NCBI GenBank assembly: GCA_030827595.1
Contig: JAURED010000001.1
Coordinates: 93,161-126,878, forward strand
Source of the DNA: Burkholderiales bacterium
GTDB lineage: Bacteria; Pseudomonadota; Gammaproteobacteria; Burkholderiales; Methylophilaceae
Reading direction: 5' to 3'
DNA: 33,718 nucleotides
Shown here: positions 29,971 to 33,718 of the stretch, one piece after another
Layout: each line of letters starts with the position of its first letter
How positions within the stretch are numbered: the first letter of the stretch is position 1
The notes under the pieces: model-generated
What the model saw: the letters and a program-made list of their open reading frames with translations, nothing else
Told to the model about the DNA's origin: nothing
Databases searched by the model: none
Made by a program: the position numbers and the translations under genes

Positions 29971-31296
29971 CTAATGCAGCTTGACCCTAGCCTCGGTTCT
30001 TCGTGAAATAATTTTACCAATTAAACGGAACACAACACTGACAACACCATGTAATGCCGATAGGTGCATTTGATACAACATCAGGTACATTAATCGAGCA
30101 ATCAATCCCTCAACAAACATACTTCCACCGAGCAACGATCCCATGAGGTTCCCTACGGTAGAATATCGGCCCAAGTTGACCAATGAACCATAATCTTTAT
30201 ACACATAATCAAGAGGGGTTTTATTAGGCCTCGTAACACGATTTTTAAGGGTTTTATAGAGCAGAGATGCCTGCTGATGAGCCGCCTGGGCACGAGGAGG
30301 AACTAACTCTTCAGCTCCAGGTTTAATCGGACACGCAGCACAATCGCCAAAAGCAAAAATATTTTTATCCGTCACAGTTTGTAGGGTAGAAAGTACTTTT
30401 ACCTGATGAATTGCATTTGTTTCTATGCCCTCAATTTTTGATAAAAACTCAGGGGCTTTTATTCCTGCGGCCCACACCACTAACGATGAAATGATTTTTT
30501 TTCCTGAATGGGTTTCAACACCATGCTCGGTGACTCGGGTTACTTTTTCACCCAAAAATAATTTTACGTTTAATTTACGTAATTCCATCTCAACTGAAGT
30601 ACTAATTTTAGGGGGGAGTGCTGGAAGCAATCTTGGGCTTGCTTCAACTAAATGAATACTAATATCCCGATCTGGATTAATGCGGTCTAATCCATAGGCC
30701 GCCATTTCCCTTGTCGCTTTATGCAGTTCAGCGGCTAATTCCACTCCTGTGGCGCCACCTCCCACTATCACCACTTCCAATTGTCCTGGTCTCACCGAAC
30801 CTGCTTGGGTCTGCGCTCTTAAAATAGAATTGTGTAATTTTTGATGGAAGCGTTCAGCCTGGTATTGTGTATCCAGCGCAACAGCATGCTCTTTTGCTCC
30901 AGGAATATTAAAATCGTTCACTGTGCTTCCGACGGATAAGACTAAAGTGTCATATTTAATTTTTCTTTGTGGGATAATCTCAACCCCATCAATATCTGAT
31001 GTCGGGCCAATGGTGATGGTTTGATTTTTAGCGTCAACATCATCGACACGGCCATAACGAAATTTGAAGTGATGCCAATGCGCTTGCGCTAAATATTCAA
31101 GCTCATCCTTATCTGGATTCAAGCTTCCTGCGGCAATTTCATGTAATAAAGGTTTCCAAACATGGGTCTTTTTGGCATCGACTAAAAAAATTTCTGCGAG
31201 ATTTTTTTTACCCAAACTATTACCCAGTTTAGTGGCAAGCTCTAAGCCACCCGCACCGCCGCCAACAATCACTATTCGATGAAGCTGTTGTTCCAT
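29971..31296 (-). CDS. ndh: Type II NADH:quinone oxidoreductase (NDH-2)
   Basis: NDH-2 passes electrons from NADH to quinone at the inner membrane without pumping protons. The 441-residue flavoprotein has two Rossmann motifs: IVGGGAGGLELATKLG at the N-terminus for FAD and IVGGGATGVELAAELH mid-protein for NADH. It also has FAFGDCAAC near residue 315 and an amphipathic or hydrophobic C-terminal region for membrane binding. It begins eight bases after the stop of the lipoprotein cytochrome gene, with a GGGGA ribosome site, and is probably cotranscribed with it. Confidence 0.9.
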   Translation of the reverse strand: MEQQLHRIVIVGGGAGGLELATKLGNSLGKKNLAEIFLVDAKKTHVWKPLLHEIAAGSLNPDKDELEYLAQAHWHHFKFRYGRVDDVDAKNQTITIGPTSDIDGVEIIPQRKIKYDTLVLSVGSTVNDFNIPGAKEHAVALDTQYQAERFHQKLHNSILRAQTQAGSVRPGQLEVVIVGGGATGVELAAELHKATREMAAYGLDRINPDRDISIHLVEASPRLLPALPPKISTSVEMELRKLNVKLFLGEKVTRVTEHGVETHSGKKIISSLVVWAAGIKAPEFLSKIEGIETNAIHQVKVLSTLQTVTDKNIFAFGDCAACPIKPGAEELVPPRAQAAHQQASLLYKTLKNRVTRPNKTPLDYVYKDYGSLVNLGRYSTVGNLMGSLLGGSMFVEGLIARLMYLMLYQMHLSALHGVVSVVFRLIGKIISRRTEARVKLH

Positions 31297-31304
31297 TCAG
31301 TCCC

Positions 31305-31856
31305 CTATTCGTTTCCGGTTAAGTCTTTATTATGGCTTCTTACGAAAGCAATAATTTTTAATAATTCATCCACTGTTACACCGTCATCAGCAGCCATAAT
31401 ACCGAAGCCTTTGCCGCCCATACCGCCGTTAGTGCCGCCCCAGATCGTTTCAAACATGCCTTTGTTTGTCGCGTCTTTTGCGTAGTTATATTTTGGGCCA
31501 ATTAAACCTGGACCCACTTGGCCTTTTGCTGTTGGACCATGACACTGTGTACATGACCACATGTTATAACGTTTTTTACCAGCCGCTACGGCTTCCGCAT
31601 TACCAACATAAATGTTCTTACCAGACTTGAGGAATTCTTTTTCAGCATCTGTGCCTACTAAAGCCTTTTCTGGAAATTTAATTTCACTACCGTCAGAGGT
31701 TTTAACCAGTTTGATGTTTGTGACTGGTTGTATGGATATGCTTTCTTCAGTCGATACCTGAGCTACTGTATCATTCTCAGCGCTAACAGGAATTGATGAA
31801 TCATCTTTTGAGCAACTTTGAATAAAACATATAAAGATTAGAACTAGATATTTCAT
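31305..31856 (-). CDS. Lipoprotein form of cytochrome cL (XoxG duplicate with swapped N-terminus)
   Basis: The 183-residue protein starts with a lipoprotein signal (lipobox FIQSC, C15) and a flexible Ser/Glu-rich linker of about 30 residues. From N47 it is identical to the mature XoxG of the next gene, including the single haem site C-T-Q-C-H. It lacks only the last two residues. A strong GGGAGG ribosome site precedes the ATG. Serine follows the lipidated cysteine, which in E. coli would favour outer membrane sorting. Inference: a membrane-tethered version of the methanol dehydrogenase electron acceptor, cotranscribed with ndh. An assembly artefact is not excluded because the shared DNA is identical. 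Confidence 0.82.
   Translation of the reverse strand: MKYLVLIFICFIQSCSKDDSSIPVSAENDTVAQVSTEESISIQPVTNIKLVKTSDGSEIKFPEKALVGTDAEKEFLKSGKNIYVGNAEAVAAGKKRYNMWSCTQCHGPTAKGQVGPGLIGPKYNYAKDATNKGMFETIWGGTNGGMGGKGFGIMAADDGVTVDELLKIIAFVRSHNKDLTGNE
31308..31720. repeat. 413-bp perfect direct repeat, copy 1
   Basis: Compared base by base with 31943-32355, this block shows no difference. One end is at the signal peptidase junction of the encoded protein; the other is two codons before the xoxG stop. The copies are offset by 635 bases. Confidence 0.97.
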
Positions 31857-31876
31857 AATCCTCCCAGATTACAAAT

Positions 31877-31901
31877 AAAAACGGCTGATGAAATCAGCCG
31901 T
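31877..31901 (-). terminator. Terminator after xoxG
   Basis: A nine-base stem (ACGGCTGAT with ATCAGCCGT) and three-base loop are followed on the minus strand by a U run. It lies 33 bases after the xoxG stop and 20 bases before the lipoprotein cytochrome start. Confidence 0.8.
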
Positions 31902-31902
31902 A

Positions 31903-31908
31903 ATTATA
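31903..31908 (-). promoter_or_regulatory. -10-like TATAAT between the two cytochrome genes
   Basis: A perfect TATAAT on the minus strand, without a clear -35. If used, transcription would start near or inside the hairpin at 31882-31901, which would then be a leader hairpin of the lipoprotein cytochrome gene. Confidence 0.35.
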
Positions 31909-31933
31909 ACCTATGATGCAAAATACTTTTGAA

Positions 31934-32425
31934 TTATAGACCTTCGTTTCCGGTTAAGTCTTTATTATGGCTTCTTACGAAAGCAATAATTTTTAATAAT
32001 TCATCCACTGTTACACCGTCATCAGCAGCCATAATACCGAAGCCTTTGCCGCCCATACCGCCGTTAGTGCCGCCCCAGATCGTTTCAAACATGCCTTTGT
32101 TTGTCGCGTCTTTTGCGTAGTTATATTTTGGGCCAATTAAACCTGGACCCACTTGGCCTTTTGCTGTTGGACCATGACACTGTGTACATGACCACATGTT
32201 ATAACGTTTTTTACCAGCCGCTACGGCTTCCGCATTACCAACATAAATGTTCTTACCAGACTTGAGGAATTCTTTTTCAGCATCTGTGCCTACTAAAGCC
32301 TTTTCTGGAAATTTAATTTCACTACCGTCAGAGGTTTTAACCAGTTTGATGTTTGCATAAGTCAAACTAGAGAGACCAACTAATGCTGCTAATAGTGATG
32401 ACACAACTACTTTTTTTGAAAACAT
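31934..32425 (-). CDS. xoxG: Cytochrome cL, electron acceptor of methanol dehydrogenase (XoxG/MxaG type)
   Basis: This periplasmic cytochrome c takes electrons from PQQ methanol dehydrogenase. The 163-residue precursor has a Sec signal peptide with a likely cut after A24 (LTYA-N). The mature protein has the haem motif C80-T-Q-C83-H84 within MWSCTQCHGP, then GLIGPKYNY, GMFETIWGGTNGGMG and DELLKIIAFVRSH, characteristic of the cytochrome cL family; the methionines at 113, 124 and 132 are candidates for the distal ligand. The open frame extends to 32455, but the ATG at 32425 has an AGGAG site five bases upstream and gives a proper signal peptide. It lies directly after xoxJ in the xox order. Confidence 0.93.
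   Translation of the reverse strand: MFSKKVVVSSLLAALVGLSSLTYANIKLVKTSDGSEIKFPEKALVGTDAEKEFLKSGKNIYVGNAEAVAAGKKRYNMWSCTQCHGPTAKGQVGPGLIGPKYNYAKDATNKGMFETIWGGTNGGMGGKGFGIMAADDGVTVDELLKIIAFVRSHNKDLTGNEGL
31943..32355. repeat. 413-bp perfect direct repeat, copy 2
   Basis: This block is identical to 31308-31720. It encodes the whole mature XoxG except the final Gly-Leu. Confidence 0.97.
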
Positions 32426-32578: not shown

Positions 32579-32608
32579 AAAAAAAGGGGTGAAAAATCAC
32601 CCCTTTTT
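32579..32608 (-). terminator. Terminator after xoxJ
   Basis: The stem AAAAAGGGGTGA / TCACCCCTTTTT has a four-base loop. On the minus strand it ends in a U run. It starts 20 bases after the xoxJ stop. Confidence 0.9.
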
Positions 32609-32627: not shown

Positions 32628-33512
32628 TTATTGCTTGTGACGCTTATAACCATCCAGATTACTTGAAAATTCTGGCTCTAAATATGGGATGCCATAATCA
32701 TCAAGAATTTTTAAGATTTTATCTCTATTTTTCATAACAACCGCCTCAATTTCATCACGTCGTTCAACATCTCTTTTACGCACACCAACTGAGATGTTCC
32801 ATAATGTTTTGCCTGTTTGTTTGACTTGCTCATATTCTGGAATTGGAACAATCATCATCTCAACACCCGACTGTTTCGCATAATAGCCTGCTAGAGGTCC
32901 CCATTCGACGGCGATATCAACTTCTCCAGAGACAACATCATCGATTAATTCGCCTGGAGATGCGGTCAAGTCTCTTTGAATTCGATACGGTTTAGCGTTA
33001 CCCATTAAATCATTATCATCCAGGGCGACAGTAACAGGACTTTTATCCTTAATGCCAATGACGCTTTTTCTTAAATCTTCTGATTTCCAATCTTTAATAT
33101 TTAAACCCCTATCTTTTCGATATACCCAGACATACCCGGCTCGATAATATGGCTTAGTGGTATCGACAGCATCATAAGTTGTAGTCGTTCCAATGAGGTA
33201 ATCACATCGATAGGCATTCAACGTATTCCTTAAGAAACCAAAGCGATCAAACCAAAATTGATAGGATAATTCTTTGCCCATTTCCTTGGCTAACAATTCT
33301 GCAATTTTGTTTTCAAAACCTTCACCTTTGTCATTCGAATATGGAAGATTGTTTGAATCTGCGCACACCTTAAATTCATTGTCTTTTGGAACGCGTCTAG
33401 CCTCTCCGACCTTTCCATCACTATAAATATCGTCAGCATAAACTGTTTCCATAGTCACCAATGGTAACGACATTAATGCAATCAAAAATGTAATTAATCT
33501 TTTTTTAGCCAT
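32628..33512 (-). CDS. xoxJ: Periplasmic solute-binding-like protein XoxJ (MxaJ family)
   Basis: XoxJ/MxaJ proteins are periplasmic-binding-protein folds needed to activate or assemble PQQ methanol dehydrogenase. The 294-residue protein has a signal peptide cut after about A26 (TVYA-DD). Its mature start region EFKVCADSNNLPYSNDKGEGFENKIAELLA and later YRCDYLIGTTTTYDAVDTTKPYYRAGYVWV segments are typical of the family. An AAGGA site precedes the ATG. It sits between the xoxF end and xoxG. It has its own -10-like box and terminator, so it may be transcribed separately. Confidence 0.93.
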   Translation of the reverse strand: MAKKRLITFLIALMSLPLVTMETVYADDIYSDGKVGEARRVPKDNEFKVCADSNNLPYSNDKGEGFENKIAELLAKEMGKELSYQFWFDRFGFLRNTLNAYRCDYLIGTTTTYDAVDTTKPYYRAGYVWVYRKDRGLNIKDWKSEDLRKSVIGIKDKSPVTVALDDNDLMGNAKPYRIQRDLTASPGELIDDVVSGEVDIAVEWGPLAGYYAKQSGVEMMIVPIPEYEQVKQTGKTLWNISVGVRKRDVERRDEIEAVVMKNRDKILKILDDYGIPYLEPEFSSNLDGYKRHKQ

Positions 33513-33548
33513 ATCCGCATTTCCTTAATTTGTAAATTATTTTCCGTG

Positions 33549-33554
33549 ATTATA
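33549..33554 (-). promoter_or_regulatory. -10 box upstream of xoxJ
   Basis: A perfect TATAAT on the minus strand directly follows the U run of the xoxF terminator, 36 bases before the xoxJ ATG. The -35 position falls in the terminator stem and is not a good match. Confidence 0.45.
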
Positions 33555-33557
33555 CAC

Positions 33558-33589
33558 AAAAAAAAACACCCTACCGAAGTAGGGTGTTT
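33558..33589 (-). terminator. Terminator after xoxF with UUCG loop
   Basis: An 11-bp stem (AAACACCCTAC / GTAGGGTGTTT) closes on a UUCG tetraloop in the minus-strand RNA and is followed by nine U. This is a very stable terminator or mRNA 3'-end protector. Confidence 0.93.
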
Positions 33590-33617
33590 GTAAGACTAAC
33601 TAACGAGTAATTAGTTT

Positions 33618-33639
33618 CTTATAATTTAAAAATTATAAG
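33618..33639. repeat. Inverted repeat overlapping the xoxF stop codon
   Basis: Arms CTTATAATTT and AAATTATAAG flank two bases. The TAA stop of xoxF lies in one arm. Confidence 0.6.
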
Positions 33640-33718
33640 CTAAATACTGTTAATGCACCGCCGCCAGGAGCAGCGTTGTATTTTGTTAGTTCTTTATAAC
33701 CACCAGCAGCACCAAGTG
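33633..33718 (-). CDS. xoxF: PQQ-dependent methanol dehydrogenase XoxF, C-terminus only (cut by window edge)
   Basis: The last 27 residues are visible and end GGYKELTKYN-APGGGALTVFSL-like, matching the C-terminal blade of the MDH family. It is called XoxF rather than MxaF because the genes after it are xoxJ, xoxG and a second cytochrome, with no mxaI. The lanthanide-ligand residues lie outside the window, so the XoxF/MxaF choice is inference. The enzyme oxidises methanol in the periplasm. Confidence 0.8.
   Translation of the reverse strand, partial: LGAAGGYKELTKYNAAPGGGALTVFSL

Follow-up and report, generated by a model that had tools for sequence, protein, structure and literature searches.

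Here, we analysed a window of 33,718 nucleotides, i.e. the whole stretch of DNA under study, from a marine, methanol-eating bacterium of the family Methylophilaceae. Near one end of the window, five genes follow each other on the minus strand in the order xoxF-xoxJ-cytochrome-lipocytochrome-oxidoreductase, the upstream cytochrome being predicted to stay free and the downstream one to be fixed by a lipid. The features of this locus are, in the direction of the genes:

33633-33718, minus strand: xoxF (lanthanide methanol dehydrogenase), 3' part only, as the contig stops at G000:C21:126878; stop codon located by eye
33564-33589, minus strand: intrinsic-terminator-like hairpin after xoxF (pattern scan)
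32628-33512, minus strand: xoxJ, quinoprotein dehydrogenase-associated binding protein (TIGR03871, 263 bits, cut-off 212)
32581-32608, minus strand: hairpin and T-tract in the spacer from xoxJ to the Sec cytochrome gene (listed by the scan on the plus strand; T-rich sequence after it on the minus strand by eye)
31934-32425, minus strand: gene of a putatively Sec-exported XoxG/cL-like cytochrome c, 163 aa, signal peptide MFSKKVVVSSLLAALVGLSSLTYA, heme motif CTQCH, assigned by family matches
31943-32355, minus strand: mature domain, copy 1 (Sec gene), presumed homogenised, 413/413 identical to copy 2
31881-31901, minus strand: intrinsic-terminator-like hairpin between the two cytochrome genes (pattern scan)
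31305-31856, minus strand: predicted lipoprotein cytochrome gene, 183 aa, lipobox MKYLVLIFICFIQSC, 31-residue linker, same mature domain
31721-31856, minus strand: lipoprotein leader and linker, absent from the Sec copy, 89.0% nucleotide identity to LSUCC0401
within the preceding feature: linker of the lipoprotein copy, including SKDDSSIPVSAENDTV, 31 residues between the lipobox Cys and the common domain
31308-31720, minus strand: mature domain, copy 2 (lipoprotein gene), presumed homogenised, 413/413 identical to copy 1
29971-31296, minus strand: pyridine nucleotide-disulphide oxidoreductase, Ndh-like (PF07992, 168 bits), 8 nt after the lipoprotein gene and syntenic in relatives

The two cytochrome genes carry a direct repeat (31308-31720 versus 31943-32355) that is identical at 413 of 413 nucleotides, as the original prediction had stated. 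Searched against its own genome, the repeat gave two matches (746 bits, 100%), both on contig G000:C21, and among the direct-repeat families of at least 30 nt listed by the repeat finder for the window it is the sole one; the finder's entry is one 300-nt family, and the ends of the 413-bp block were read from the sequence. The block covers the mature protein only. Identity sets in with base 2 of the codon preceding the Asn of 'NIKLV', directly after '...SLTYA' and just past the point where signal peptidase I would probably cut the Sec copy, a site predicted by eye; this is the boundary that had been proposed at the XoxG cleavage site. At its other end the block stops short of the stop codons, and the C-terminal ends differ (NE* versus NEGL*). 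The common part thus corresponds to the mature carrier beneath two different export leaders: a Sec signal peptide in one copy and, in the other, a lipobox with a linker for which we counted 31 residues (about 30 had been claimed). The ribosome sites that had been noted ahead of both starts were found again by eye (AGGAGA and GGGAGG).

Both proteins are class I cytochromes c with one CxxCH motif (PF00034, about 35 bits, gathering threshold 21.3). Their best model match is the strict cytochrome c(L) model TIGR03872, but with 90.3 and 90.9 bits they stay below its curated cut-off of 147.8, as do six related genes (78-103 bits). With about 90 bits where 147.8 are required, 'cL-like/XoxG' is a safer name than the initial cytochrome cL. 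Among solved structures, the Sec copy is closest to 7c90, a 'mono- and diheme variant' cytochrome c, followed by the cytochrome cL structures 2d0w and 2c8s and by c551i/c-L 2gc4. xoxF and xoxJ adjoin the cytochrome genes, as expected of an XoxG-type acceptor; the xoxF end (33518-33718) is 99.0% identical to LSUCC0401 at the nucleotide level, and an entire xoxF precedes xoxJ in locus L033. The downstream neighbour, previously called ndh, is a pyridine nucleotide-disulphide oxidoreductase, but the family matches do not show its substrate. Tight clusters of xoxF, xoxJ, xoxG and the oxidoreductase are described for Methylophilaceae in the sections of PMC3728764 used here, and those of PMC5723320 report several cytochromes of two lineages in this family.

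The lipoprotein nature of the downstream copy is suggested by a pattern match comprising an n-region, a hydrophobic stretch and a lipobox Cys near residue 15-30. In the window, the lipobox reads F-I-Q-S-C with Cys15, followed by 31 residues up to the common domain. The window and LSUCC0401 both have Q at position -2, which departs from the strictest consensus, so that only wider patterns caught the lipobox of the window. This residue would fit a leader that stays an uncleaved signal anchor and never undergoes lipoprotein processing; however, other lineages carry classical lipoboxes at the same place (e.g. LLAC, LISC, MVAC, LGAC), and we regard such an anchor as unlikely. We rather infer that the downstream cytochrome is lipidated and membrane-located, so that the same cytochrome would occur both free and tethered in the cell. 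Lipoboxes were found by pattern in 69 genes (the spurious L044 being dropped), with 60-93 residues between the Cys and the heme motif and G in 30, S in 24, N in 13 and D in two cases at residue +2 after the Cys. In E. coli, the +2 residue after the lipid Cys decides on the membrane, with G, S and N leading to the outer membrane. By this rule, which comes from another organism, 67 of the 69 lipoproteins would go to the outer membrane, a weak hint at their location. Structure prediction for the lipoprotein form was of low quality (mean pLDDT 56.8).

Two adjacent matches occur in 13 of the 31 genomes of the genus, five of them single-contig assemblies, and a scan of the GTDB species genomes yielded 75 loci. 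Loci with such cytochromes include beta proteobacterium KB13, LSUCC0401, LSUCC0665, LSUCC0717 and HTCC2181 as well as many Methylophilus, Methylotenera and Methylovorus. We classified 91 loci (window, L009, L016-L023, L025-L029, L031, L033-L107), leaving out L001-L008, L010-L015 and L024 because their genomes were already represented; no row exists for L030 and L032, which contig ends cut short. At 67 of the 91, at least two such genes stand in a row. A lipobox gene was recognised by pattern in 65 of these 67, with L059 as a 66th by eye. In L096 (1976-2498), no leader can be read for the second cytochrome gene, whose frame shifts ahead of the core; it may be a lipoprotein copy in decay or one that was misassembled. 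xoxJ precedes and the oxidoreductase follows at 63 of the 67, and the other four lack one matched flank (three at contig ends, one with masked bases). The gene order thus recurs across the Methylophilaceae, and relatives with a lipoprotein cytochrome next to the oxidoreductase, for which the original prediction had asked, could be found and their copies compared.

A single such gene was seen by pattern at 24 loci. Fifteen of them are from the window's genus, namely 13 G genomes with a G2 core, the truncated L031 and HTCC2181; G1 and G2 are core-type labels of this analysis and are not equated with XoxG1/XoxG2 of PMC5723320. The others are Methylopumilus-type L044 and L045, lipoprotein genes near a contig end (L048, L093, L101), L099, whose second gene was not recovered, and L090, L092 and L102, which are cytochromes of other loci and were left out of the tree and the leader tests below. 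In part of the genus, e.g. HTCC2181 and L084, the interval from xoxJ to the oxidoreductase holds no lipoprotein gene, which is therefore dispensable in those genomes. Where the pair exists in five deeper relatives of the genus, its members differ at 94-154 of 405 sites, and this divergence shows that the Sec/lipoprotein pair is old. Synteny and the orthologous flanks of each copy place the duplication before the split of the species. A diverged core behind the lipoprotein leader, which the original prediction had set against its own reading, does therefore occur, but it does not refute duplication plus conversion.

Given these distances in deeper relatives, exchange between the two genes appears to have become frequent in the clade of the window. 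The Sec and lipoprotein mature domains (411 nt) of one genome differ at 0 sites in the window and LSUCC0401, at 1 in LSUCC0717, 2 in ERR599143, 3 in LSUCC0665, 6 in G003, 7 in Ww101 and 25 in KB13. Between genomes, mature domains differ at 16-30 sites inside the KB13-like subclade (five genomes), at 46 for the window versus LSUCC0401 and at 74-89 for other pairs. All 46 of 411 differing sites between the window and LSUCC0401 follow an AABB pattern and none ABAB, meaning that every change is mirrored in both copies. Third codon positions show 0 differences between the copies in the window and likewise in LSUCC0401, whereas the mean third-position difference between Sec and lipoprotein copies across genomes of the clade is 0.298. 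Over the clade, the mean Sec-lipoprotein distance is 0.009 within versus 0.136 across genomes (permutation p = 0.00015), and the own partner is the nearest in seven of eight genomes. Outside the domain, the window and LSUCC0401 are alike at 89.0% in the lipoprotein leaders, 94.3% in the signal peptides and 93.85% over the whole 33.7 kb; the leaders of both genomes align, and parts outside the domain therefore follow the species. Paralogs closer than orthologs, third positions included, between orthologous flanks are the signature of concerted evolution, which in these alignments is confined to the mature domain and strong in the window clade (7/8 genomes). The working parts of the two genes probably stay identical because DNA is copied from one to the other. 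Of the three options that had been offered for the perfect identity (very recent duplication, ongoing gene conversion, assembly chimera), ongoing conversion is the best favoured, with 46 of 46 sites mirrored and 0 differences within either genome.

Exchange of this strength is limited to the window clade, and ongoing conversion across the whole family was rejected. The own partner is nearest in only 1/12 Methylophilus pairs (0.234 within versus 0.242 across genomes, p = 0.0068), 3/15 Methylotenera-like pairs (0.263 versus 0.271, p = 0.042), 1/5 deeper OM43 pairs (0.328 versus 0.338, p = 0.117) and 2/5 other pairs (0.295 versus 0.312, p = 0.106). The gap between within- and cross-genome distances outside the window clade amounts to 0.008-0.017, with L089, L072 and L098 as clearer single cases. 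Such small gaps could reflect a little old conversion or shared ancestry.

Leaders and cores occur in different combinations. A Sec G1 core stands before a lipoprotein G2 core at 19 loci, while G2 is found in both genes at 44. Sec leaders of the form 'M(L/F)GNKxxK' are common to both core-type sets in several lineages, and 'MLGNK..K' precedes two core types. A profile of the Sec G1 leaders gives more than 10 bits to 20 of the 60 Sec G2 leaders but at best -9.8 to the 69 lipoprotein leaders (the spurious L044 included in this test); as controls, an xoxF signal peptide gives -3.9 and an xoxJ signal peptide -19.7. Five of the 60 Sec G2 leaders fall below -9.8, three of Methylophilus type with a one-residue length shift, which the ungapped profile cannot handle, and two with a mis-chosen start. 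With 8.1 bits (shuffle p = 0.0004), the window's Sec leader shows a faint relationship to the leaders of the other core type. In a quick tree of 157 cores (135 columns; 61 of 146 inner branches below 80), of which we use the broad message only, the lipoprotein and Sec labels change at least 12 and at least 13 times on the starred branches. Two Methylovorus genes, L068 and L071, look like mosaics: up to 'NPY' they score 172 against Sec G1, 170 against Sec G2 (L051) and 122 against lipoprotein G2, while their heme part scores 481/485 against lipoprotein G2, 445/441 against Sec G2 and 225/227 against Sec G1.

Could the identity in the window have arisen without repeated copying? The 0/411 differences would suit a very recent tandem duplication in this genome after which one copy gained a new leader. 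However, both leaders and the gene order are also present in relatives (the tandem in 13 of 31 genomes of the genus, at least two genes at 67 of 91 loci, 63 of these with both flanks), the lipoprotein leaders of the window and LSUCC0401 align at 89.0% and are orthologous throughout the other genomes of the clade, and the same event would be needed anew in each genome; we therefore hold this origin, raised in the original prediction, to be highly improbable. The chimera suspected there, i.e. a short-read assembler writing one consensus into two diverged genes, draws on the state of the source genome, which is fragmented (22 contigs, 67% complete) with the window's contig ending in xoxF about 1.3 kb upstream of the Sec gene, and on matches cut at contig ends in the fragmented G004, G011 and G015. 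It is nevertheless quite improbable, for five single-contig genomes have the same tandem, among which LSUCC0401 stands at 0/411 and others at 1, 3 and 6, and KB13 with 25 shows that diverged copies can stay apart. The contig ends of G004, G011 and G015 are as expected if an identical tandem repeat halted the assembler. Purifying selection alone might also hold old paralogs alike without any DNA exchange, given that both copies may have to fit the same XoxF. It is contradicted by the third positions, which are identical too (0 differences in the window and LSUCC0401 versus 0.298 across genomes), and its probability appears practically negligible.

A different molecular route to the same outcome would be cycles of unequal crossing over, i.e. 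triplication followed by deletion, instead of non-reciprocal gene conversion. The expected intermediate is found in L070 (1443-3409), where three genes combine a Sec leader with a G1 core, a lipoprotein leader with a G1 core and a lipoprotein leader with a G2 core; the middle gene matches the third upstream (77% over 66 nt) and the first in its core (71% over 188 nt), and the array appears to be a remnant left by unequal crossing over. L064 with its duplicated first gene points in the same direction, and the single-copy Sec genes of the genus could be deletion products. Yet, none of the eight window-clade loci holds a triplication, and the L070 event must be old since its matching stretches are only 71-77% alike. 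We consider such cycles possible as the homogenising process but rather doubtful, and favour gene conversion for the window clade. The mosaics and the three-gene array in relatives are likely intermediates. In L064 (4253-6414), the first gene (Sec, G1-type) is duplicated in tandem, the two being 75% alike over about 600 nt.

Of the 69 spacers between cytochrome genes, 65 contain a terminator-like hairpin with varying stem sequences, where shuffling of the spacers gave an expectation of 0.3; L039, L062, L064 and L070 have one spacer each without it. The scan is by pattern only, and 20 loci were folded. With such a hairpin in the spacer, transcription of the tethered copy and of the oxidoreductase would be weaker than that of the free copy, and the cell probably makes less of the tethered cytochrome. 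For the OM43 isolate NB0046, the part of PMC5120137 available to us gives 10-11 xoxG transcripts per cell versus a mean of 83 for xoxF in exponential phase, the xoxG figure not telling the two cytochromes apart. In several lineages, a TATAAT motif is located within the loop of the spacer hairpin or next to it; 30 of 67 spacers contain the motif at any position (9.3 expected). Near it, no -35 match was seen by eye; the motif might be a promoter of the lipoprotein gene embedded in the terminator.

Taken together, we regard it as likely that an old pair of XoxG-type cytochromes, one with a Sec and one with a lipoprotein leader, has its mature domain but not its leaders copied by recombination, and that this provides a free and a smaller tethered pool of one carrier. 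The carrier domain would be copied by homologous recombination between the segments that encode the mature proteins, through gene conversion and, in one lineage or more, through unequal crossing over, while both leaders would stay uncopied because they do not match each other. In the window clade, copying would be frequent enough for (near-)identity, so that both copies diverge from other species in step. XoxF would pass electrons to the cytochrome, whose free copy shuttles them in the periplasm, and the lipoprotein copy would present the same docking surface held at the membrane on its linker. Through recombination, the two surfaces would both go on fitting their common partners. XoxF would have a single kind of acceptor at two sites: one pool free in the periplasm and a smaller one tethered to a membrane. 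Observed are the repeat, the mirrored substitutions, the synteny, the combinations of leader and core and the conservation of the hairpin, while conversion as the molecular event, the dose and the electron transfer from XoxF to both forms are, like lipidation and membrane location, the parts of this model that we infer. More tentatively, one may go a step further and ask whether carrier and address are separate modules: recombination would then move a core under either leader in both directions, the terminator would set the ratio, and the lipoprotein leader would perhaps be an outer-membrane address.

What would one carrier at two places mean? If carrier and address are indeed such modules, XoxF would feed two spatially separate electron pools via one identical carrier surface. 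The location of the electron acceptor has received little attention in the literature searched, in which a two-pool layout for methanol oxidation is not described. As the functional domain is identical in the window clade, location is almost the sole variable, and a change of leader would test tethering directly.

A soluble and an anchored cytochrome that run between the same complexes and work alike are known as cytochromes c2 and cy. Cytochrome cy, however, is encoded by a separate gene, is anchored in another way and is not known to be kept identical to c2. A close parallel is the archaeal mtrA, where copying homogenises one domain and spares the localisation part. According to the parts of PMC4632066 considered, gene conversion limited to one domain acts on mtrA-1/mtrA-2 of methanogens, which, like the present pair, are neighbouring paralogs in one operon with differing membrane parts and for which synteny argued against recent duplication. 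In contrast to that archaeal methyltransferase subunit with its two transmembrane types, our case concerns a bacterial periplasmic c-type cytochrome in a free and a lipoprotein form with strong current exchange in one clade only (comparison with the same parts of PMC4632066). Long-lasting concerted evolution is also reported in the portion of PMC6053082 used here for amo/hao/cycAB of ammonia-oxidising Nitrosomonadales. There, too, periplasmic electron-transfer paralogs of Betaproteobacteria are homogenised, as argued from paralog/ortholog topology and synteny, but the homogenisation is full-length and the copies are multiple whole operons. The locus itself agrees with Methylophilaceae XoxG as described in sections of PMC5723320 and PMC3728764, with multiple xoxG and a conserved cluster of xoxF, xoxJ, xoxG and oxidoreductase. 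The word 'lipoprotein' is absent from both papers, and those sections hold nothing on exchange between xoxG genes. Domain homogenisation in a soluble/lipoprotein cytochrome pair was not reported in the literature searched, the scope of which excluded most subscription papers; where papers on XoxG or cytochrome cL mention lipoproteins there, the passages considered concern other matters. According to an excerpt of PMC5120137, XoxF-type methanol oxidation ranks with the most highly transcribed functions in coastal OM43 bacteria.

The common cytochrome domain is itself more diverged than its surroundings. Between the window and LSUCC0401, it differs by 11.1% in both copies, compared to 2.9-8.8% in 24 other coding segments, and 46 differences are reached by 1.5% of 413-nt windows, the copies included. 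No donor lineage for the diverged domain was found. The highly diverged domain sits near the conserved xoxJ (4.4%) and the xoxF end (1.0%) in the same comparison. In KB13 (L036), the 25 differences between the copies are scattered along most of the domain, as compared to 1-6 in four close relatives, and one of the two KB13 copies may have been re-imported.
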